From Flavobacteriales bacterium (lineage in GTDB: Bacteria; Bacteroidota; Bacteroidia; Flavobacteriales_D; Crocinitomicaceae): a DNA stretch of 64,000 nt. The notes beneath the pieces are model-generated. The model saw only the letters and a list, made by a program, of their open reading frames with translations. It made no database searches and had not been told where the DNA came from. Where the stretch lies: positions 1 to 64,000 of the forward strand of contig VEQH01000015.1 of assembly GCA_018883325.1 (NCBI GenBank), written 5' to 3'. Shown in pieces: positions 53,686 to 60,933 of the stretch; the stretch's first letter is position 1; each line of letters begins with the position of its first letter. A program made the position numbers and the translations under genes.

Positions 53686-56600
53686 ATGAGAAAAATATTC
53701 CTTTTTGCATTGCTAGTGTCTTCTTTTGCACAAGCACAAAAAACAACCAAAACCACTTCAAGTCCTTCAACGCCAAAACCAATTTTTGACGCAGGAACAG
53801 TTTCAAGTCTTTCTTTCCGAATGGTTGGTCCTGCCCTAACCTCTGGCCGTGTTGCGGATATTGCTGTTCACCCGAAAAATAAAGACGTATGGTATGTTGC
53901 GGCTGCCTCCGGTGGTGTTTGGTTTACAGCAAATCATGGAATCACTTTCTCTCCCATTTTTGATAATTATGGATCTTATTCCATTGCTTGTGTTGAATTG
54001 GCACCTTCAAATCCAAATACCGTTTGGGTAGGAACAGGCGAAAACAACAATCAACGTTCGGTGGCTTATGGCGATGGCGTTTACAAATCCTTAGACGGTG
54101 GAAAATCTTTCACAAACATGGGTTTGAAATTAAGTGAACACATTGGAAATATTATCATTCACCCTACAAATGAAGACATTGTGTGGGTTGCAGCTTATGG
54201 TCCTGTTTGGAGCGCAGGTGGCGAACGTGGCGTTTACAAAACAATTGATGGCGGCAAAACCTGGGAACGCACGCTTTTTGTTTCCAATGAAACTGGTATT
54301 TCTGAAATCGCAATCGATCCAACAAACCCTGATATTTTATACGCCGCAGCACATCAACGTCGAAGAACAGAAGCAACTTATATCGGCGGCGGTCCAGAGT
54401 CAACACTTTATAAATCAACTGATGGCGGAAAAACGTGGAAGGAAATTGCAGCTGGATTACCTAAATCTGATATGGGAAGAATTGGAATCGCTGTTTCACC
54501 CGTTGATGCAGATTATATCTACGCAATCGTTGAAGGACGTTATGGAAAAGGTGGTTTGTACCGTTCTACCAATAAAGGAGAAAATTGGTCGAAACAAGGC
54601 GATTTTAGCACTAGCGGAAATTACTACCAAGAAATCATTTGCGACCCAAAAGACAAAAACAAAATCTTCGCAATGGACACCTATTTGCATCACAGTGAAG
54701 ACGGTGGGAAAACGTTTAAACAAACAGGAGAATCAAACAAACACGTTGATAATCATTGCATTTGGATTGACCCAAGCAATACCGACCATTGGATAGTTGG
54801 CTGTGATGGTGGCGTTTATGAAACGTATTCTCACGCAAAAGAATGGTTTTACTATGCCAATTTACCAATTATTCAATTCTACAAAGTTGCAACAGACAAC
54901 GCTACTCCATTTTATAACATTTACGGTGGAACACAAGACAATAACAGTATGGGTGGGCCAGCTGCAACAAACAACGTAGCAGGAATTTTAAATTCAGATT
55001 GGTTCATCACGAATGGTGGAGATGGTTTTGAATCAGCAACAGATTGGTCAAATCCGAATATTGCTTACGCGCAAGCGCAATACGGTTGGTTGGTTCGCTA
55101 TGACAAAGTTTCAGGAGAAAAAGTGCCAATTCAGCCAATGCCTGGAAAAGGTGAAGCTGCTTACCGTTGGAATTGGGACGCACCTCTAATTGTTTCTTCT
55201 CACGATGCCTCAACCTTGTATTTTGCAGCCAATAAATTATTCAAATCAACAAATCGTGGCGATGATTGGCAAACAATTTCTCCCGATTTAACGCAACAAC
55301 TTGACCGTAATAAGGAAAAAGTTATGGGGCAAGTTTGGACAATTGATGCCGTAATGAAAAATGCTTCAACAACAATTTATGGCAATATCGTTGCGTTGGA
55401 CGAGTCGTCGAAGAAAAAAGGATTATTGTACGTTGGAACCGATGATGGATTGATTCAAGTTTCTGAAAACGATGGTCAAAATTGGAGTAAATATGCTGTT
55501 TTCCCAAGTGTTCCAACCAATACAAGAGTAAATATGTTGACTGCATCTGTTCACGATGAAAATGTGGTTTTTGCAGCGTTTAATTCACAACGTCAAGGCG
55601 ACTTTAAACCGTATTTACTAAAATCAACGGACAAAGGAAAAACGTGGACATCTATCGTTGGGAACTTGCCAACGCGCGGCAATGTTTACTGCATCAAACA
55701 AGATCACGTTGACCCTAATTTATTGTTTGCAGGAACTGAATTTGGCGCATTTTTCTCAAATGATGGAGGTATAAATTGGACGAAATTAGCTGGTTTACCA
55801 ACAATCGCAGTTTACGATTTAGACATTCAAAAACGCGAAAATGATTTAGTTGCAGCAACTTTTGGACGTGGTTTTTATGTGCTTGACAATTATGCACCTC
55901 TACGCGAATTGAAAAAAGAGAACTTGGATAAAAAAGCTCATTTATTTGGGATAAAACCAGCTTTACTTTACGTTCCTGCTGATCCACTTGGATTGGAAGG
56001 CACAGGTTTTCAAGGGCATAATATGTGGTCGGCGAAAAACCCAGAATTTGGAGCAACTTTTTATTTACACCTAAAAGATGAATTTAAATCCTTGAAAGAA
56101 ATTCGCCAAGACAAAGAAAAAGCTTTGGAGAAAGACAAAAAAGATGTGGTTTACCCAAGTTTTGAAGAATTAAGAAAAGAAGAACAAGATCAAGCAGCGC
56201 AGTTAATTTGGTTGATTTACGATGCCAACGGTAAAGAAATCAAACGCATGACTTCCAAACCTTCCAAAGGAATCAATAAGCTAAATTGGAACTTGAGAAC
56301 AAATTCTACGAATCCAATTAGTAGCGGAGGAAATGGCTTTTTGGTGACACCTGGAAATTACAGTTTATCGGTGACTTTAGTTAAAAACGAGCAAGTTGAA
56401 ACCTTAGTTGAGAAGCAAGCATTTGTTGTTAAAGGATTTAATAACCAAACTTTGATTGCCAAAAATCCTGTTGAACTTTCAACTTTCAGAAGTGAAGTGG
56501 CAGAATTGAACAGAAAAGTAAGCGGTGTTGGTCGTGTAATGCGTGAAAGCAATGAAATTTTGAACCTACTTCAAGAGGCAATTACCAATTATCCAAATGC

Positions 56601-56937
56601 GGATTTAAGTCTATTGAAAGAAGTGAAAGCATTGAAAAACACGTATGACGAATGTTCGCTTTTGCTTTGGGGAGATCGTCTTCGTTCAAAACACGAATTT
56701 GAAACTGCACCGAGTTTGAACGACCGCTTGAACATGATTGAATATCAATTGTACGAAAATACGACAGGCGTTTCGAACACACACAAAGCCAACAAAGCTA
56801 TTGCAGAAGAGGAATATGCAGCTTTGCGAGTGAAATTAAACGATATGATTCAACGCATGGAAGCTTTGGAAGCCAAACTTGCCACGATTCTAATTCCATA
56901 CACAAAATCTCGTGGCTTAGACTGGAAGAAGGATTAG
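53686..56937 (+). CDS. Secreted BNR/VPS10-type beta-propeller protein
   Basis: The 1083-aa protein has a signal peptide (MRKIFLFALLVSSFAQAQ) and at least nine BNR/Asp-box units of the SxDGGKTW type (for example KSLDGGKSF, KTIDGGKTW, KSTDGGKTW, HSEDGGKTF, KSTDKGKTW, SNDGGINW). They form sortilin/VPS10-like propellers in roughly the first 720 residues. The last 250 residues are helical and charged. Members are annotated as glycosyl hydrolases, but no sialidase active-site Arg/Tyr set is evident, so catalysis is doubtful. It is probably periplasmic or outer-membrane facing. It has no operon partner. Confidence 0.88.
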   Translation: MRKIFLFALLVSSFAQAQKTTKTTSSPSTPKPIFDAGTVSSLSFRMVGPALTSGRVADIAVHPKNKDVWYVAAASGGVWFTANHGITFSPIFDNYGSYSIACVELAPSNPNTVWVGTGENNNQRSVAYGDGVYKSLDGGKSFTNMGLKLSEHIGNIIIHPTNEDIVWVAAYGPVWSAGGERGVYKTIDGGKTWERTLFVSNETGISEIAIDPTNPDILYAAAHQRRRTEATYIGGGPESTLYKSTDGGKTWKEIAAGLPKSDMGRIGIAVSPVDADYIYAIVEGRYGKGGLYRSTNKGENWSKQGDFSTSGNYYQEIICDPKDKNKIFAMDTYLHHSEDGGKTFKQTGESNKHVDNHCIWIDPSNTDHWIVGCDGGVYETYSHAKEWFYYANLPIIQFYKVATDNATPFYNIYGGTQDNNSMGGPAATNNVAGILNSDWFITNGGDGFESATDWSNPNIAYAQAQYGWLVRYDKVSGEKVPIQPMPGKGEAAYRWNWDAPLIVSSHDASTLYFAANKLFKSTNRGDDWQTISPDLTQQLDRNKEKVMGQVWTIDAVMKNASTTIYGNIVALDESSKKKGLLYVGTDDGLIQVSENDGQNWSKYAVFPSVPTNTRVNMLTASVHDENVVFAAFNSQRQGDFKPYLLKSTDKGKTWTSIVGNLPTRGNVYCIKQDHVDPNLLFAGTEFGAFFSNDGGINWTKLAGLPTIAVYDLDIQKRENDLVAATFGRGFYVLDNYAPLRELKKENLDKKAHLFGIKPALLYVPADPLGLEGTGFQGHNMWSAKNPEFGATFYLHLKDEFKSLKEIRQDKEKALEKDKKDVVYPSFEELRKEEQDQAAQLIWLIYDANGKEIKRMTSKPSKGINKLNWNLRTNSTNPISSGGNGFLVTPGNYSLSVTLVKNEQVETLVEKQAFVVKGFNNQTLIAKNPVELSTFRSEVAELNRKVSGVGRVMRESNEILNLLQEAITNYPNADLSLLKEVKALKNTYDECSLLLWGDRLRSKHEFETAPSLNDRLNMIEYQLYENTTGVSNTHKANKAIAEEEYAALRVKLNDMIQRMEALEAKLATILIPYTKSRGLDWKKD

Positions 56938-57168: not shown

Positions 57169-57561
57169 ATGAAACATATTGAAGTTGTTGCAGCAGTAAT
57201 AAAATTTGAAAACAAAATACTTTGCGTTCAAAGAAATAAAAATAAGTATGAATACATTTCATATAAATATGAGTTTCCTGGTGGCAAAGTTGAAGAAAAT
57301 GAAACCAATGAGATTGCCTTAAAACGAGAAATACAAGAAGAATTAAATCTTGATATTAAAATTGAAAGTCCGTTTATGGTTGTTGAACATTCATACCCTG
57401 ATTTCGATATTACAATGAATACTTATTTATGTTCTTGTACAACAAAAGACATTAAACTGAATGAACATATCGATTTAAAATGGTTATCTATTAACGAGTT
57501 AGGTAGTTTGGATTGGGCAGAGGCTGATTTGCCAATCGTAGAAAAACTAATAAATTACTAG
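57169..57561 (+). CDS. NUDIX hydrolase, MutT-like
   Basis: The 130-aa protein has a full Nudix box at residues 39-61: G39x5E45x7R53E54xxE57E58, with Asn60 in place of the usual Gly. The N-terminus VVAAVIKFENKILCVQRNK and the insert YKYEFPGG match the (d)NTP pyrophosphohydrolase (8-oxo-dGTP/CTP) branch. It lies 3 bp before the helicase gene, so the two are co-expressed. It could clean an altered nucleotide, or act in a defence or repair system with the helicase. The pair seems AT-richer than the neighbouring BNR gene. Confidence 0.9.
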   Translation: MKHIEVVAAVIKFENKILCVQRNKNKYEYISYKYEFPGGKVEENETNEIALKREIQEELNLDIKIESPFMVVEHSYPDFDITMNTYLCSCTTKDIKLNEHIDLKWLSINELGSLDWAEADLPIVEKLINY

Positions 57562-57564
57562 TCA

Positions 57565-60483
57565 ATGGAAGCTCTAAAACTCGCCATTCAAAATTCCGTA
57601 ACAACTGGATTTGTTGATGATAAATTTGATTCACTTTTAGATTATCGCCCGAGTATTCTAACCAATGAACCTATTATTAATGAAAAAGTACTTTCAACAA
57701 TTTTAGATGAACTTAGAACATGTGAATCTTTTTTTTTATCAGTTGCTTTTATTACTTCAGGAGGAATATCTTCTTTGTTTGGGACTCTTTTAGACTTACA
57801 AATTAAAGGTGTAAAAGGTAAAATTCTTGTTTCTGAGTATTTGAATTTTACGGAGCCCGAAGCGCTAAGAAAAATTCTACAACTCTCAAACGTAGAACTT
57901 AAAATTGCTAGAAACACAGATTTTCACTCAAAAGGTTTTTTATTTACTCATAAATCTTATTACACAATCATCATTGGAAGTAGTAATATTACGCATGGTG
58001 CATTAACCAAAAATAAGGAGTGGAATTTAAAAGTTACAGCACATAAGGACAGTGAACTTTTCAAAAACACAATTAAGGAATTTGAAAATGTTTTTGATAA
58101 ATCTCATGAAGTAAATGAGGAATATCTAGAACGTTATGCTTTTGTATATAATTCAGAAAGAAAATTACGACAAGGGCTTAGAAAAGCTTTACTAGATGTT
58201 GATGATAAAAAAATTCTACCTAATGAAATGCAAATTAAAGCACTTCAAAATCTTAAAAATTTAAGAAGTTTAGGAAAAAATAAAGCACTTTTAGTTTCAG
58301 CAACAGGAACGGGAAAAACATTTTTGTCAGCTTTTGATGTAGCTCAAGTAAACCCGAATAGAATGCTTTTTCTAGTGCATCGAAAAAATATAGCACAAAA
58401 AGCGCTAGAAAGCTATCAATTGATATTGAATAATAAAAAGACATTAGGTTTATATTCTGGAAATACTAAAAACAGTAATGCGAATTATCTTTTTTCTACA
58501 GTGCAAACATTCAGTAGAGATGAACATTTAACCAATTTTTCACCCGATAGCTTCGATTATATTGTCATTGATGAAACACACAGAGCAAGTGCTTCGAGTT
58601 ATCAAAAAATAATGAATTATTTTAAGCCAAAGTTTCTTCTCGGAATGACTGCAACACCAGAAAGAACTGACGGTTTAGATATTTTTGCTTTATTTGATTA
58701 CAACATTGCTTCAGAAATTAGACTGCATGATGCTTTAGCGAATGATATGTTAGTTCCATTTCATTATTTCGGTATCGCAGATATTGAAGTTAATGGAAAG
58801 CTTCTAGATGAATCTGCCTCTATTCATGATTTAAATAAAATTGATAGAGTAAATCACATTATTGAAAATTTGATATTATTTGGTACGGATGATGGAATAA
58901 ACAGAGGTTTAGTATTTTGTTCGAGACAGGAAGAATGTATATTTCTTTCAAATGAATTCAACAATAAAGGATTTAAGTCAATTGCTTTAACTGGTAATTC
59001 TTCAGAGGAAGAAAGATCAAGAGCTATTGACTTACTTGAAACAGATGATTTTGAAATCAAGTTGGATTATATTTTTACTGTTGATATTTTCAATGAAGGA
59101 ATTGATATCCCAAGAGTGAATCAAATTGTGATGTTGAGGCCAACTCAATCAGCAATAATTTTTGTTCAGCAATTAGGGAGAGGACTCCGGAAAAGAGAAG
59201 GTAAATCATACGTAACAGTAATTGATTTTATTGGAAATTATCAAAATAATTTTTTAGTTCCAATTGCTTTATTCGGTGATAAAACATTTGTAAAAGATAA
59301 CCTTCGAAAGTTAGTTCATCGACCTGAAAAATCAATAATTGGCGCTTCAACAATTTATTTTGACAGAATAGTTAAAGAGAAAATTTTTCATTCAATCGAT
59401 ACCGGAAAACTCCAAGAGAAAAGAAGATTAGTTGAGGATTATAAAATTTTAAAAGGAAAATTAGGGAGAATTCCAACCATGATGGATTTTGTAAATCATG
59501 GAGAAAGAGATCCATATCAGTATATTTCAAATTATAATTCTTATTATTCCTTTTTGCTCGGAATGAAGGAGGATATTGCATCAATTGATGAATATACTTT
59601 ACAACTACTTGGTTTTCTATCAAAAGAAGTATTAAATCCCATTCGATTTTTAGATATATATTTATTTAAGACCATTATTGAATGCGGTAAAATTTCTTTC
59701 GAAGATTTTAAAGATCAATATGAAAAGAGTACTCAAATAGAATTTGACAATTCAACTTTTAACCATGCAATTACTCTTATTAATGGTCATTTCAATACGG
59801 TGATGGTAAATAAGAAAATGGTAAAAGTGGGAATTCATAATAACTATGAATTAATTCTATTTAAAGATGGTATTTTGAAAGCTGGTTATACGCTACAAAA
59901 TTTATTAACAAACAGACACATTAAATCTTATCTACTTGACTTGTGTCAATATTCAATTGAAACAATTTCATTAGACAATTTAGAATATATAAACAATGAT
60001 TTTATTAGCAATAAACGTTATTCGCGAAAAGATGTATTTCGAATTTTGAAATGGAATGAAAACCCAAATCCACAAAGCGTTGGCGGATATATGATTGAAA
60101 AAAATAAAAAGGATTGTGCGATTTTTGTTAATTATCACAAAGAAGATAAAATTGCGGCTTCAACAAAATATCACGATAGATTTATTTCAAGAAGTGAGTT
60201 TGTTTGGATGTCAAAAAACAAGAGATATTTAAAATCAACTGATGTGAATACGATATTATCACAAGAAGAATTGAAAATGCGTATTCCCTTATTCGTGAAA
60301 AAAAATAATTCAGAAGGTTTAGAATTTTATTATTTAGGTAATATGATAGTAAAAAAGGAAACTGCGATTGAAAAATTAATACCAGATGATAAAGGTAATA
60401 AGGTTTCTGTTGTTGAAATGTTTTTTTTATTGGATAATCCAGTTGAAAAATCACTCTACGATTATCTCGTAAATTCTGATTAG
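57565..60483 (+). CDS. PLD-nuclease / DEAD-type helicase / DUF3427 protein
   Basis: The 972-aa protein combines three parts. First is an N-terminal phospholipase-D-like domain (residues about 35-200) with H121xK123 (HSKGFLF) and GSSNITHGAL. Next is a ResIII-type SF2 helicase (about 215-570): Walker A SATGTGKT with K251, DETH at 336-339, GMTATPERTDG, and motif VI QQLGRGLRKRE (535-545). Last is a DUF3427-like C-terminal region (about 640-960). Such proteins probably act on DNA or RNA ends by coupling unwinding to phosphodiester cleavage. No methylase or specificity subunit is near, so it is not a type I R-M enzyme. Its tight linkage to the NUDIX gene suggests a functional pair. Confidence 0.9.
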   Translation: MEALKLAIQNSVTTGFVDDKFDSLLDYRPSILTNEPIINEKVLSTILDELRTCESFFLSVAFITSGGISSLFGTLLDLQIKGVKGKILVSEYLNFTEPEALRKILQLSNVELKIARNTDFHSKGFLFTHKSYYTIIIGSSNITHGALTKNKEWNLKVTAHKDSELFKNTIKEFENVFDKSHEVNEEYLERYAFVYNSERKLRQGLRKALLDVDDKKILPNEMQIKALQNLKNLRSLGKNKALLVSATGTGKTFLSAFDVAQVNPNRMLFLVHRKNIAQKALESYQLILNNKKTLGLYSGNTKNSNANYLFSTVQTFSRDEHLTNFSPDSFDYIVIDETHRASASSYQKIMNYFKPKFLLGMTATPERTDGLDIFALFDYNIASEIRLHDALANDMLVPFHYFGIADIEVNGKLLDESASIHDLNKIDRVNHIIENLILFGTDDGINRGLVFCSRQEECIFLSNEFNNKGFKSIALTGNSSEEERSRAIDLLETDDFEIKLDYIFTVDIFNEGIDIPRVNQIVMLRPTQSAIIFVQQLGRGLRKREGKSYVTVIDFIGNYQNNFLVPIALFGDKTFVKDNLRKLVHRPEKSIIGASTIYFDRIVKEKIFHSIDTGKLQEKRRLVEDYKILKGKLGRIPTMMDFVNHGERDPYQYISNYNSYYSFLLGMKEDIASIDEYTLQLLGFLSKEVLNPIRFLDIYLFKTIIECGKISFEDFKDQYEKSTQIEFDNSTFNHAITLINGHFNTVMVNKKMVKVGIHNNYELILFKDGILKAGYTLQNLLTNRHIKSYLLDLCQYSIETISLDNLEYINNDFISNKRYSRKDVFRILKWNENPNPQSVGGYMIEKNKKDCAIFVNYHKEDKIAASTKYHDRFISRSEFVWMSKNKRYLKSTDVNTILSQEELKMRIPLFVKKNNSEGLEFYYLGNMIVKKETAIEKLIPDDKGNKVSVVEMFFLLDNPVEKSLYDYLVNSD

Positions 60484-60511
60484 CATTATTAAAAATTCTA
60501 ATTTCTTCCCC

Positions 60512-60784
60512 ATGCTCACCCTCTCCCAAAAAATAATCTTCCTTAAAGAAATCCTGAATGCTCCGCATGAAAATTATGCGGAAAGTTTTAAGACGGAAAT
60601 TGGTTTTTTCTTTGAAGATTTAGAGGAGGATCACATATTGTTTCATTTTTTGAATCCACTCAATACAAAAGAGGAGATTGAAGCTTGGGTAGAAAAATTA
60701 TGTTCGCGTATCGTCCTAAAACACGACCCACCCCAAGAATCTTTAAATGATTTTATTATTGATTTTTTGGAGTTTGGTTATTAA
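60512..60784 (+). CDS. Small hypothetical acidic protein
   Basis: A 90-aa frame 28 bp after the helicase stop. It is soluble and acidic (FKTEIGFFFEDLEEDHILFH, LNDFIIDFLEFGY) with no motif that I know. The spacing allows co-transcription with the NUDIX-helicase pair. No overlapping better gene exists on either strand over most of its length, so I keep it, with caution. Confidence 0.55.
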   Translation: MLTLSQKIIFLKEILNAPHENYAESFKTEIGFFFEDLEEDHILFHFLNPLNTKEEIEAWVEKLCSRIVLKHDPPQESLNDFIIDFLEFGY

Positions 60785-60826
60785 CTAATTAGTTTGTAAA
60801 AAGTGATTTCACCTTTCCCAAAGTCT

Positions 60827-60933
60827 CCTAGCCCCGATTGCAGTGAAAATGCGTCAGTTGCCGCACACGTCCTCCAACAAAGTTTTCTTTTAAACTTGTT
60901 GGAGATTGAAACGAAAAGCGGGAAATAGCTCCA
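60827..60933 (+). ncRNA. Structured RNA element resembling the Flavo-1 motif
   Basis: The segment starts CCTAGCCCCGATTGCAGTG and ends AAAGCGGGAAATAGCTCC. These two phrases bracket a variable hairpin in a widespread non-coding element of Flavobacteria, which I believe corresponds to Flavo-1. Between them CTCCAACAA (60872-60880) pairs perfectly with TTGTTGGAG (60896-60904); CCCCG and CGGG can close the base. It lies in the 180-bp gap between convergent genes. The strand is taken from the consensus orientation. The Rfam match is from memory only. Confidence 0.5.

Follow-up and report, generated by a model that had tools for sequence, protein, structure and literature searches.

Within the window, by which we mean the whole 64,000-nucleotide stretch of contig VEQH01000015.1 that was analysed, a forward-strand gene encoding a 130-aa Nudix hydrolase (57169..57561), a predicted 5-methyl/5-hydroxymethyl-(d)CTP pyrophosphatase, is followed on the same strand by a gene encoding a 972-aa protein of the PLD-helicase-DUF3427 type (57565..60483, +). 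The stop codon of the former and the start codon of the latter are separated by 3 bp (57562..57564, +) and, given this gap, the two genes probably form an operon. GC content over both genes is 0.288, lower than in the 7 kb that precede them (0.374) and in the downstream DNA (0.363). A preliminary description of the locus had reported these ORFs, their spacing, domains and AT-rich character, all of which were confirmed. Scans for promoters and terminators gave no excess over shuffled sequences (22 vs 21.1 and 1 vs 1.6 hits, respectively).

The same description had counted a small acidic ORF of 90 aa, located downstream of the 972-aa gene (60512..60784), as part of the module. The ORF exists and is indeed acidic (18 D/E vs 7 K/R), but its membership did not hold. 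It had no match in Pfam or NCBIfam and only a weak one in PADLOC (E 0.02). Among loci L001-L060 it was found in the window's own stretch only, and among 61 genomes of the genus in two, the source genome and one weak match (E 5e-5). Furthermore, the ORF is missing next to the second copy in the source genome. A third component was therefore rejected. The full-length helicase itself is patchily distributed, being present in 6 of 25 same-genus genomes, source genome included, so the module does not show the presence in all close relatives that the preliminary description had named as speaking against a defence role. The gene upstream of the cassette (53686-56937) was matched at E<=1e-100 in 57/61 genus genomes. 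An empty insertion site could not be demonstrated in the five relatives compared, where nucleotide homology stops at or before the end of this upstream gene and none of whose stretches contains the window's downstream neighbours. A search of the host genome for a C5-methyltransferase returned a single partial match (70/324 positions, ~22 bits) at the cut-off.

Identity of the nuclease

The preliminary description could match the combination of genes to no named system. This proved incorrect or incomplete: in the PADLOC run that had been suggested, the 972-aa protein matched mREase_IV, the model for Type IV methyl-directed restriction enzymes, from end to end (1.8e-221, 736 bits), and its best match in PDB was SauUSI (7clg, E 5e-213, 713 bits), with residues 9-970 colinear with residues 9-953 of SauUSI and 397 of 943 aligned residues identical. 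SauUSI of Staphylococcus aureus is a Type IV restriction enzyme that cuts m5C and hm5C DNA, for which recognition by an SRA-like domain, translocation by an SF2 ATPase and cutting by a PLD domain have been demonstrated.

The corresponding parts are found in the window protein. Pfam detects PLDc_2 (1.1e-9), ResIII, Helicase_C and DUF3427 (7e-65). The PLD-type nuclease domain (57775..58089, +; aa 71-175) is N-terminal and carries an HxK motif, its H121 and K123 corresponding to H119 and K121 of SauUSI. An SF2 ATPase lies in the same chain, with its first RecA domain (ResIII; 58213..58665, +; aa 217-367) bearing the Walker A K251 and the DETH box D336-H339 and its second RecA domain (Helicase_C) at 58873..59193 (+; aa 437-543). 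DUF3427 (59614..60468, +; aa 684-968) is predicted from the SauUSI alignment to comprise a coupler part and an SRA-like target-recognition domain. H121, K123, K251, D336, E337 and H339 are invariant in an alignment of eight members, and the residues singled out in the preliminary description, H121 and K251 here and E57/E58 of the Nudix protein, are all present and conserved. In the sequence alignment, the residues of the 5mC pocket pair with those of SauUSI as Y842/Y831, F854/F841, V855/I842, D871/D858 and W881/W868; M829 of SauUSI is replaced by Gly840 and the glutamate of its HxKx4E motif, E126, by Thr128. Judged by sequence, the cassette is best read as a Type IV restriction operon of the SauUSI type, with predicted cleavage of m5C and hm5C DNA.

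Nudix genes beside SauUSI-type nucleases

The preliminary description had also called for a survey of the neighbourhoods of DUF3427 helicases. In the window's phylum (395 genomes), a Nudix gene was adjacent to full-length SauUSI-type genes at all 10 places found, and in a Bacillota phylum (398 genomes) at 14 of 16 places, or 24/26 in both phyla together (8/8, 13/15 and 21/23, respectively, with seed genomes left out). The linked Nudix gene occurs in three arrangements, upstream, downstream or tail-to-tail to the nuclease gene. At loci of other SF2 helicases a Nudix gene was linked in 0/15. Starting from the Nudix side, with a model built from SauUSI-linked Nudixes, 50 of 80 loci adjoined a SauUSI-type gene. 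An adjacent Nudix gene was missing from the remaining two Bacillota genes (2/16) and from one Fusobacterium gene; one of these three genomes has a strong Nudix match 14 kb away and the others weak matches only. Next to a truncated SauUSI-type gene (L236), the Nudix gene lies ~1.75 kb off. A related, partly matching PLD-helicase type was Nudix-linked in 10/21 cases in the window's phylum and 0/6 in Bacillota. Overall, the pairing of Nudix and SauUSI-type genes is widespread, in agreement with the earlier proposal of a defence-type, nucleic-acid-processing module whose Nudix belongs with the helicase.

It is highly improbable that the Nudix stands next to the restriction gene by chance or as a housekeeping gene, a MutT-type sanitiser of the ordinary sort. 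Related Nudix genes are admittedly common away from SauUSI. However, by raw count, adjacency was retained in two phylum samples with gene order rearranged in three ways, and strong matches to the Nudix model number only one or two per genome among genomes that have any.

Some further neighbourhoods were recorded. A few Nudix relatives without SauUSI adjoin other 5mC-type genes, and locus L099 encodes a fusion of a Schlafen-type helicase with a Nudix of the same family. Frames of ~1130 aa that looked like Nudix-helicase fusions were rejected as such, their extension being C-terminal and, in the nine tested, S24-peptidase-like.

The adjacency has already appeared in print in passing, for a Streptococcus MutT and, in S. 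suis, as "PDC-S07 with RM type IV". PMC12904381 and PMC9146914 proved to be false matches, and PMC5512222 contained nothing relevant. Among the matches listed from the openly licensed literature searched (CC0, CC BY, CC BY-SA), we found no explanation of the adjacency and no link drawn between S. aureus SauUSI and its Nudix; the original SauUSI paper lies outside that scope.

Predicted substrate and possible role of the Nudix protein

The 130-aa protein contains a NUDIX domain (Pfam, 1.3e-15) with an intact Nudix box (G39..E58), in which the GX5EX7REUXEE residues G39, E45, R53, E54, E57 and E58 are invariant in 13/13 sequences. Asp120 replaces the Asn of MutT; this Asp is present in 97/97 SauUSI-linked sequences and in all unlinked ones but MutT itself (52/53). 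An Asp at the MutT Asn position plays a role in cytosine choice.

Among solved structures, the closest is Bacteroides fragilis Q5LBB1 (3gwy; 53% identity, 67/127); identity to S. aureus 5x1x is 47%, to NudG 33% and to MutT 32%. In a published assay, Q5LBB1 hydrolysed 5-Me-dCTP (kcat/Km 4.8e6) and 5-MeOH-dCTP (4.4e6), as well as 5-Me-CTP (6.7e6) and 5-OH-dCTP (8.5e4). NudG, a more distant relative, is also credited with activity on 5-methyl-dCTP. The earlier suggestion that the Nudix may remove modified nucleotides is in line with the activity published for Q5LBB1, its closest assayed relative. In our tree, 3GWY and the window Nudix fall outside a clade (97/89) that contains NudG, the forks around the two being unresolved. 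The NudG clade also takes in SauUSI-linked Bacillota Nudixes, that of S. aureus among them, away from Q5LBB1 and the window Nudix. The nearest relative of Q5LBB1 in our sample (Parabacteroides, L147) has no SauUSI gene within the available stretch.

Since SauUSI cuts m5C and hm5C DNA and Q5LBB1 hydrolyses 5-Me- and 5-MeOH-dCTP, the target of the nuclease and the base of the Nudix substrate would be the same. Reasoning from homology, we lean towards a SauUSI-type nuclease coupled to a Nudix that clears modified dCTP, chiefly against self-restriction. By analogy with SauUSI, the 972-aa protein would recognise 5-methyl- or 5-hydroxymethyl-cytosine in incoming DNA via its C-terminal SRA-like domain, translocate by its SF2 ATPase and cut by its PLD domain. 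The Nudix would, like Q5LBB1, hydrolyse 5-methyl-dCTP and 5-hydroxymethyl-dCTP to monophosphates, its main job being to bar modified dCTP, for example from salvage of shredded methylated DNA, from host DNA, so that the nuclease would spare its own chromosome. The lone, partial C5-methyltransferase match in the host genome and the few Nudix relatives that adjoin other 5mC-type genes were counted in favour of this reading, along with the homology and linkage data. The Nudix appears dispensable for cutting, because SauUSI cloned in E. coli restricts without a partner; E. coli NudG may have masked a need for the Nudix in that setting.

Alternatively, the Nudix could be an offensive second layer that drains the 5-hydroxymethyl-dCTP or 5-methyl-dCTP which some phages produce for their modified genomes, leaving phage DNA starved or under-filled, while the nuclease cuts modified DNA. 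The same substrate logic and the activity of Q5LBB1 on modified dCTP fit this scenario too, hm5C enters phage DNA during replication from the hmdCTP pool, and the Nudix is itself on a list of phage-defence candidates (PDC-S07). We nevertheless regard it as rather unlikely: an emptied pool would remove the very mark that the nuclease needs, an argument by which the two activities are partly opposed on the same phage, and Nudix genes of the same family are also found without a SauUSI neighbour. It is improbable, too, that the Nudix acts on some other nucleotide tied to the response to infection or damage, be it CTP modified for use in RNA, a nucleotide oxidised once DNA has been shredded, or a signal. 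A role at the RNA level is conceivable because Q5LBB1 also takes 5-Me-CTP; its activity on 5-OH-dCTP, the Schlafen-type fusion and the fact that the window Nudix substrate is predicted from relatives point the same way. On the other hand, the assayed relative that matches the window Nudix best works efficiently on nucleotides of 5-methyl- and 5-hydroxymethyl-cytosine, which is the base recognised by the neighbour's family. Counted against the clearing of modified dCTP as protection from self-restriction were the position of the S. aureus Nudix in the NudG group, the Parabacteroides gene without SauUSI, the unlinked genes, the M829 and E126 substitutions, the linkage of the related PLD-helicase type (10/21 in the window's phylum, 0/6 in Bacillota), the distant Nudix of the truncated L236 gene, restriction by SauUSI alone in E. 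coli and the activity of Q5LBB1 on 5-Me-CTP.

So far SauUSI has been treated as a system of one protein; being modification-dependent, it has no methylase as antidote. Its near-constant Nudix neighbour, with that same modification as a free nucleotide for its likely substrate, suggests that hosts may need a defence against the mark entering via the dNTP pool, for instance from shredded DNA. We tentatively propose that SauUSI-type immunity might normally comprise two genes, a nuclease directed against modified-cytosine DNA and a nucleotide-pool guard that blocks acquisition of the mark by salvage. If true, a general route to avoid autoimmunity in modification-dependent defence would be to police the dNTP pool, and other 5mC-dependent systems would take it too. 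The proposal would also suggest an identity for PDC-S07 and a reason why, in S. suis, it is found together with RM type IV. Both members of the S. aureus pair have solved structures (7clg for SauUSI, 5x1x for the Nudix).

Comparison with known systems

The likeness to DISARM DrmC and Mokosh put forward in the preliminary description was not borne out. These share a PLD-type domain and a helicase with the window protein but differ in architecture; the best DrmC model scored 22 bits vs 736 for mREase_IV, no Mokosh model was among the PADLOC matches listed, and both were rejected on these scores. PDC-S07, a PADLOC phage-defence candidate, matches the window Nudix at 6.4e-50. Since hits of this model also include E. 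coli, frames as long as MutY-like ones and Nudix genes that are unlinked, such a match alone does not signify defence.

Q5LBB1 resembles the window Nudix in its intact Nudix box and in the same Asp within a DWAEAD motif, and differs from it in that its nearest relative in our sample (L147) lacks a SauUSI neighbour. The entry 5x1x ('Mutator mutT protein'), which we take to be from S. aureus, has a near-identical gene 1 nt upstream of SauUSI in an S. aureus locus (L195); like the window Nudix it is thus found beside a SauUSI-type gene, whereas in the tree it groups with NudG. Finally, the window nuclease departs from SauUSI in carrying Gly840 for M829 and Thr128 for the HxKx4E glutamate and in its Bacteroidota host, and agrees with it in length, in the order of the domains, in the catalytic residues and most of those of the pocket, and in having a Nudix gene directly upstream.

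Composition of the cassette and identity of its nuclease

The two genes lie exactly where the preliminary description had placed them, with the Nudix gene at 57169-57561 (+ strand, 130 aa) followed, after a 3-bp gap, by the nuclease gene at 57565-60483 (+ strand, 972 aa). The cassette has a GC content of 0.288; the corresponding values are 0.374 for the upstream 7 kb and 0.363 for the downstream side. A small downstream ORF (60512-60784, 90 aa), initially counted as a member, was excluded: it has no Pfam or NCBIfam match, is confined among retrieved loci L001-L060 to the window's own stretch and is matched in 2 of 61 genus genomes (the window's own and one weakly). A Flavo-1 RNA (RF01705; 44.5 bits, gathering threshold 42) is located just downstream of the cassette at 60826-60929 (+). 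Together with the named relatives, this RNA suggests a Bacteroidota host.

From N- to C-terminus, the 972-aa protein carries PLDc_2, ResIII, Helicase_C and DUF3427 domains. Although the combination of genes had been described as matching no named system, two results place the nuclease with SauUSI, the Type IV restriction enzyme of Staphylococcus aureus: PADLOC's Type IV methyl-directed restriction model spans residues 8-970 (1.8e-221), and the best solved-structure match is 7clg (residues 9-970 versus 9-953, E = 5e-213). SauUSI comprises a PLD nuclease, an SF2 ATPase, a coupler and an SRA recognition domain and acts on 5mC and 5hmC (available text of PMC7913695); DUF3427 is also predicted to bind modified DNA in PMC7159879. 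As alignment reference we used the SauUSI sequence of L195, a clone labelled Staphylococcus phage, which matches 7clg along its full length of 953 residues (2066 bits). Identity reaches 397 of 943 aligned residues; H119/K121 are kept as H121/K123, as are pocket residues Y831, F841, D858 and W868, whereas I842 is replaced by Val, M829 by Gly and E126 by Thr. Judged by sequence, the window locus belongs to the SauUSI family.

Full-length nucleases were found in 6 of 25 same-genus genomes and on plasmids as well, two examples measuring 143 kb and 54 kb. For the gene upstream of the cassette, 57 of the 61 genus genomes gave a match, but none of five stretches taken from relatives includes the downstream neighbours. 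A 323-aa HNH_2 endonuclease (L105:1983-2951, L107:3431-4399) lies upstream of the genome's second SauUSI-type copy and convergently beside a 77% copy in genome G015. Separately, a C-terminal Peptidase_S24 (LexA-like) domain lengthens a Bacteroidota group of SauUSI-type proteins to about 1124-1151 aa; all nine nucleases tested (L111, L116, L118, L119, L120, L124, L132, L138, L148) pass its Pfam cut-off, and self-cleaving control of the nuclease is possible.

Linkage of nuclease and Nudix genes

The nuclease family (E<=1e-60) is present in 40 of the 395 genomes surveyed from the window's phylum. The full-length type (over 700 bits) occupies 10 places in 9 genomes, with a Nudix directly upstream at 10/10, one of them (G097) having a TGA inside its Nudix match. 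Two of these places come from the window's own genome (8/8 linked without them), whose second copy, C65, is 90% identical to the cassette in the nuclease and 64% in the Nudix. Same-genus loci L012, L013, L014 and L016 likewise have the Nudix, and the L015 stretch begins inside one. The Bacillota sample comprised 398 genomes centred on that of Anaerotalea alkaliphila (L158), itself found via its Nudix. Here a Nudix adjoins 14 of 16 full-length or nearly full-length nucleases (over 500 bits; 13/15 without the centre genome), the Nudix lying upstream in 5 (the centre genome included), downstream in the same orientation in 3 and tail-to-tail in 6. Neither exception (L224, L229) has a Nudix within 1.5 kb of the nuclease; one of their genomes holds a strong Nudix 14 kb off and the other a weak match alone. 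No Nudix adjoins the Fusobacterium SauUSI-type place, and in L236, outside the count with its nuclease gene cut by the contig end, one lies about 1.75 kb downstream. The nuclease precedes its Nudix in L202 and L203 (both gut clones carrying a phage label) and in L226, L227 and L228. Loci of other SF2 helicases (L003-L005, L019-L030) had a Nudix in 0 of the 15 retrieved.

A second, related nuclease type matches the SauUSI model over about residues 40-660 alone; the two proteins tested (L044, L133) fit PADLOC's second model, PDLC03659. It is Nudix-linked in 10 of 21 retrieved loci of the window's phylum, with 12 further places outside the count, and in 0/6 in Bacillota (L216, L217, L233-L235, L237).

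The reverse scan used an alignment of SauUSI-linked Nudixes alone, and is biased toward linked ones. Among the best 80 of 577 candidate stretches, 49 had a same-strand downstream nuclease, 45 of SauUSI type and 4 of the second type (L133, L140, L141, L185). The nuclease was upstream in 1, elsewhere in the locus in 0 and absent in 30, in 6 of which the contig extends for less than 700 bases to one side; its frame is broken in L113 and L115. Positives within these best 80, assigned from record titles (many of metagenome bins) and tree labels, came from Bacteroidota, Pseudomonadota, Bacillota, Spirochaetota, Verrucomicrobia and Mycoplasmatota as well as methanogenic archaea and Bathyarchaeota. 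On well-supported branches of the Nudix tree (145 rows, few columns, bootstrap unsettled) the label "upstream of SauUSI" changes at least 9 times and the tail-to-tail label at least 3 times. Gain or loss of the link thus appears to have happened repeatedly.

Predicted substrate and proposed mechanism

The best solved match of the window Nudix is 3gwy, the Bacteroides fragilis protein Q5LBB1 (2.8e-40), with 67/127 residues identical; identity falls to 33% with E. coli NudG and to 32% with MutT. At the position of MutT's Asn, which presumably bears on base choice, Asp is found in 97/97 linked and 52/53 unlinked Nudixes, MutT being the sole exception. For Q5LBB1, reported kcat/Km values (per M per s, errors large) are 6.7e6 for 5-Me-CTP, 4.8e6 for 5-Me-dCTP, 4.4e6 for 5-MeOH-dCTP and 8.5e4 for 5-OH-dCTP, and 5-methyl-dCTP (1.3e6) is among the likely substrates of NudG (available text of PMC5158307). 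Given its likeness to Q5LBB1, the window Nudix likely acts on free nucleotides of the 5mC/5hmC type, which carry the base recognised in DNA by its neighbour's family.

SauUSI cuts m5C and hm5C DNA, a single polypeptide being sufficient in vitro as well as in E. coli carrying the cloned gene (according to PMC3874153). By analogy, the window nuclease would cut such DNA, and salvage of the shredded DNA could yield 5-methyl-dCTP, which, once incorporated, would leave the host's DNA marked. The Nudix, destroying 5-Me- and 5-HOMe-dCTP like Q5LBB1, would block such marking. This pairing of a nuclease with a pool-guarding Nudix is most likely how the cassette works. The host genome gave one partial C5 methyltransferase match, which spans 70 of 324 positions and scores about 22 bits, level with the cut-off; such a near-absence would suit a 5mC-restricting cell. 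An offensive Nudix, draining the modified dCTP of phages, is possible, but would strip the mark that its partner nuclease requires.

Beyond the guarding role proposed for the pair, unlinked Nudixes lie by other 5mC-type genes in 4 of 30 loci, a count with no baseline rate that offers a hint. In L142, a broken gene combines an SRA-like stretch (21.6 bits, below the cut-off) with an HNH part fitting a PADLOC Type IV model (3e-19); L172 has an HNH protein weakly similar to that stretch (3e-8); L123 has a C5 methylase along with a Type II enzyme that carries a MutH domain; and L187 has a MutH-domain protein on the opposite strand, with a C5 methylase by eye only.

Other neighbours were also observed. 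In lactobacilli, Lactiplantibacillus among them, the Nudix and SauUSI pair is followed by a second nucleotide-cleaning gene unrelated to the Nudix and annotated as a nucleotide pyrophosphohydrolase (L192:7877-8197, L197:5930-6241; MazG-like by Pfam in L192, the one checked). L099:3128-5497 (-) encodes a fusion of a Nudix of the window's family with a Schlafen-group helicase (PADLOC PDC-S41, 8.5e-287). In a clostridial genome, an ASCH-domain gene (L153:5587-5916) immediately precedes an unlinked Nudix of the family, and L128:5495-5836 resembles it by eye only.

Comparison with known systems

Adjacency of a Nudix and a SauUSI-type gene is already known in passing. A figure legend in PMC7641849 identifies the small "DNA repair" proteins that neighbour SauUSI homologues in Streptococcus as homologues of MutT. 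In S. suis, the PADLOC candidate model PDC-S07 and RM type IV co-localised in 23/23 occurrences, the one pair among 24 to do so; "nudix" is absent from the available text (PMC12813430). PDC-S07 is also reported in 99% of Enterobacter genomes (PMC12851794), as under-represented in Halobacteriota (PMC12988326) and for S. thermophilus, with no functional result seen in the available text (PMC11514479). Since the model also matches in E. coli, we infer that the Enterobacter matches are NudG. It further matches unlinked Nudix genes and frames of 350-420 aa (E 1e-35 or better) that appear MutY-like by length, and on these grounds PDC-S07 probably overcalls "defence" in surveys. Neither a substrate match of the pair nor a mechanism for it was found in the literature searched. 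What makes the locus interesting is the partner, an apparently unexplained, near-constant enzyme of the nucleotide pool that likely acts on the very mark of the enemy.

The same arrangement occurs with SauUSI itself. A Nudix lies just before SauUSI both in L194, from S. aureus strain 333 in a plasmid collection, and in L195, which despite its phage label is probably host DNA and has 1 nt between Nudix stop and SauUSI start. The terms "nudix", "pyrophosphohydrolase" and "operon" are absent from the available main text of PMC7913695. Both L195 proteins match solved structures, 5x1x for the Nudix (280 bits) and 7clg for SauUSI (2066 bits). In the Nudix tree, the S. aureus protein groups with NudG and not with Q5LBB1.
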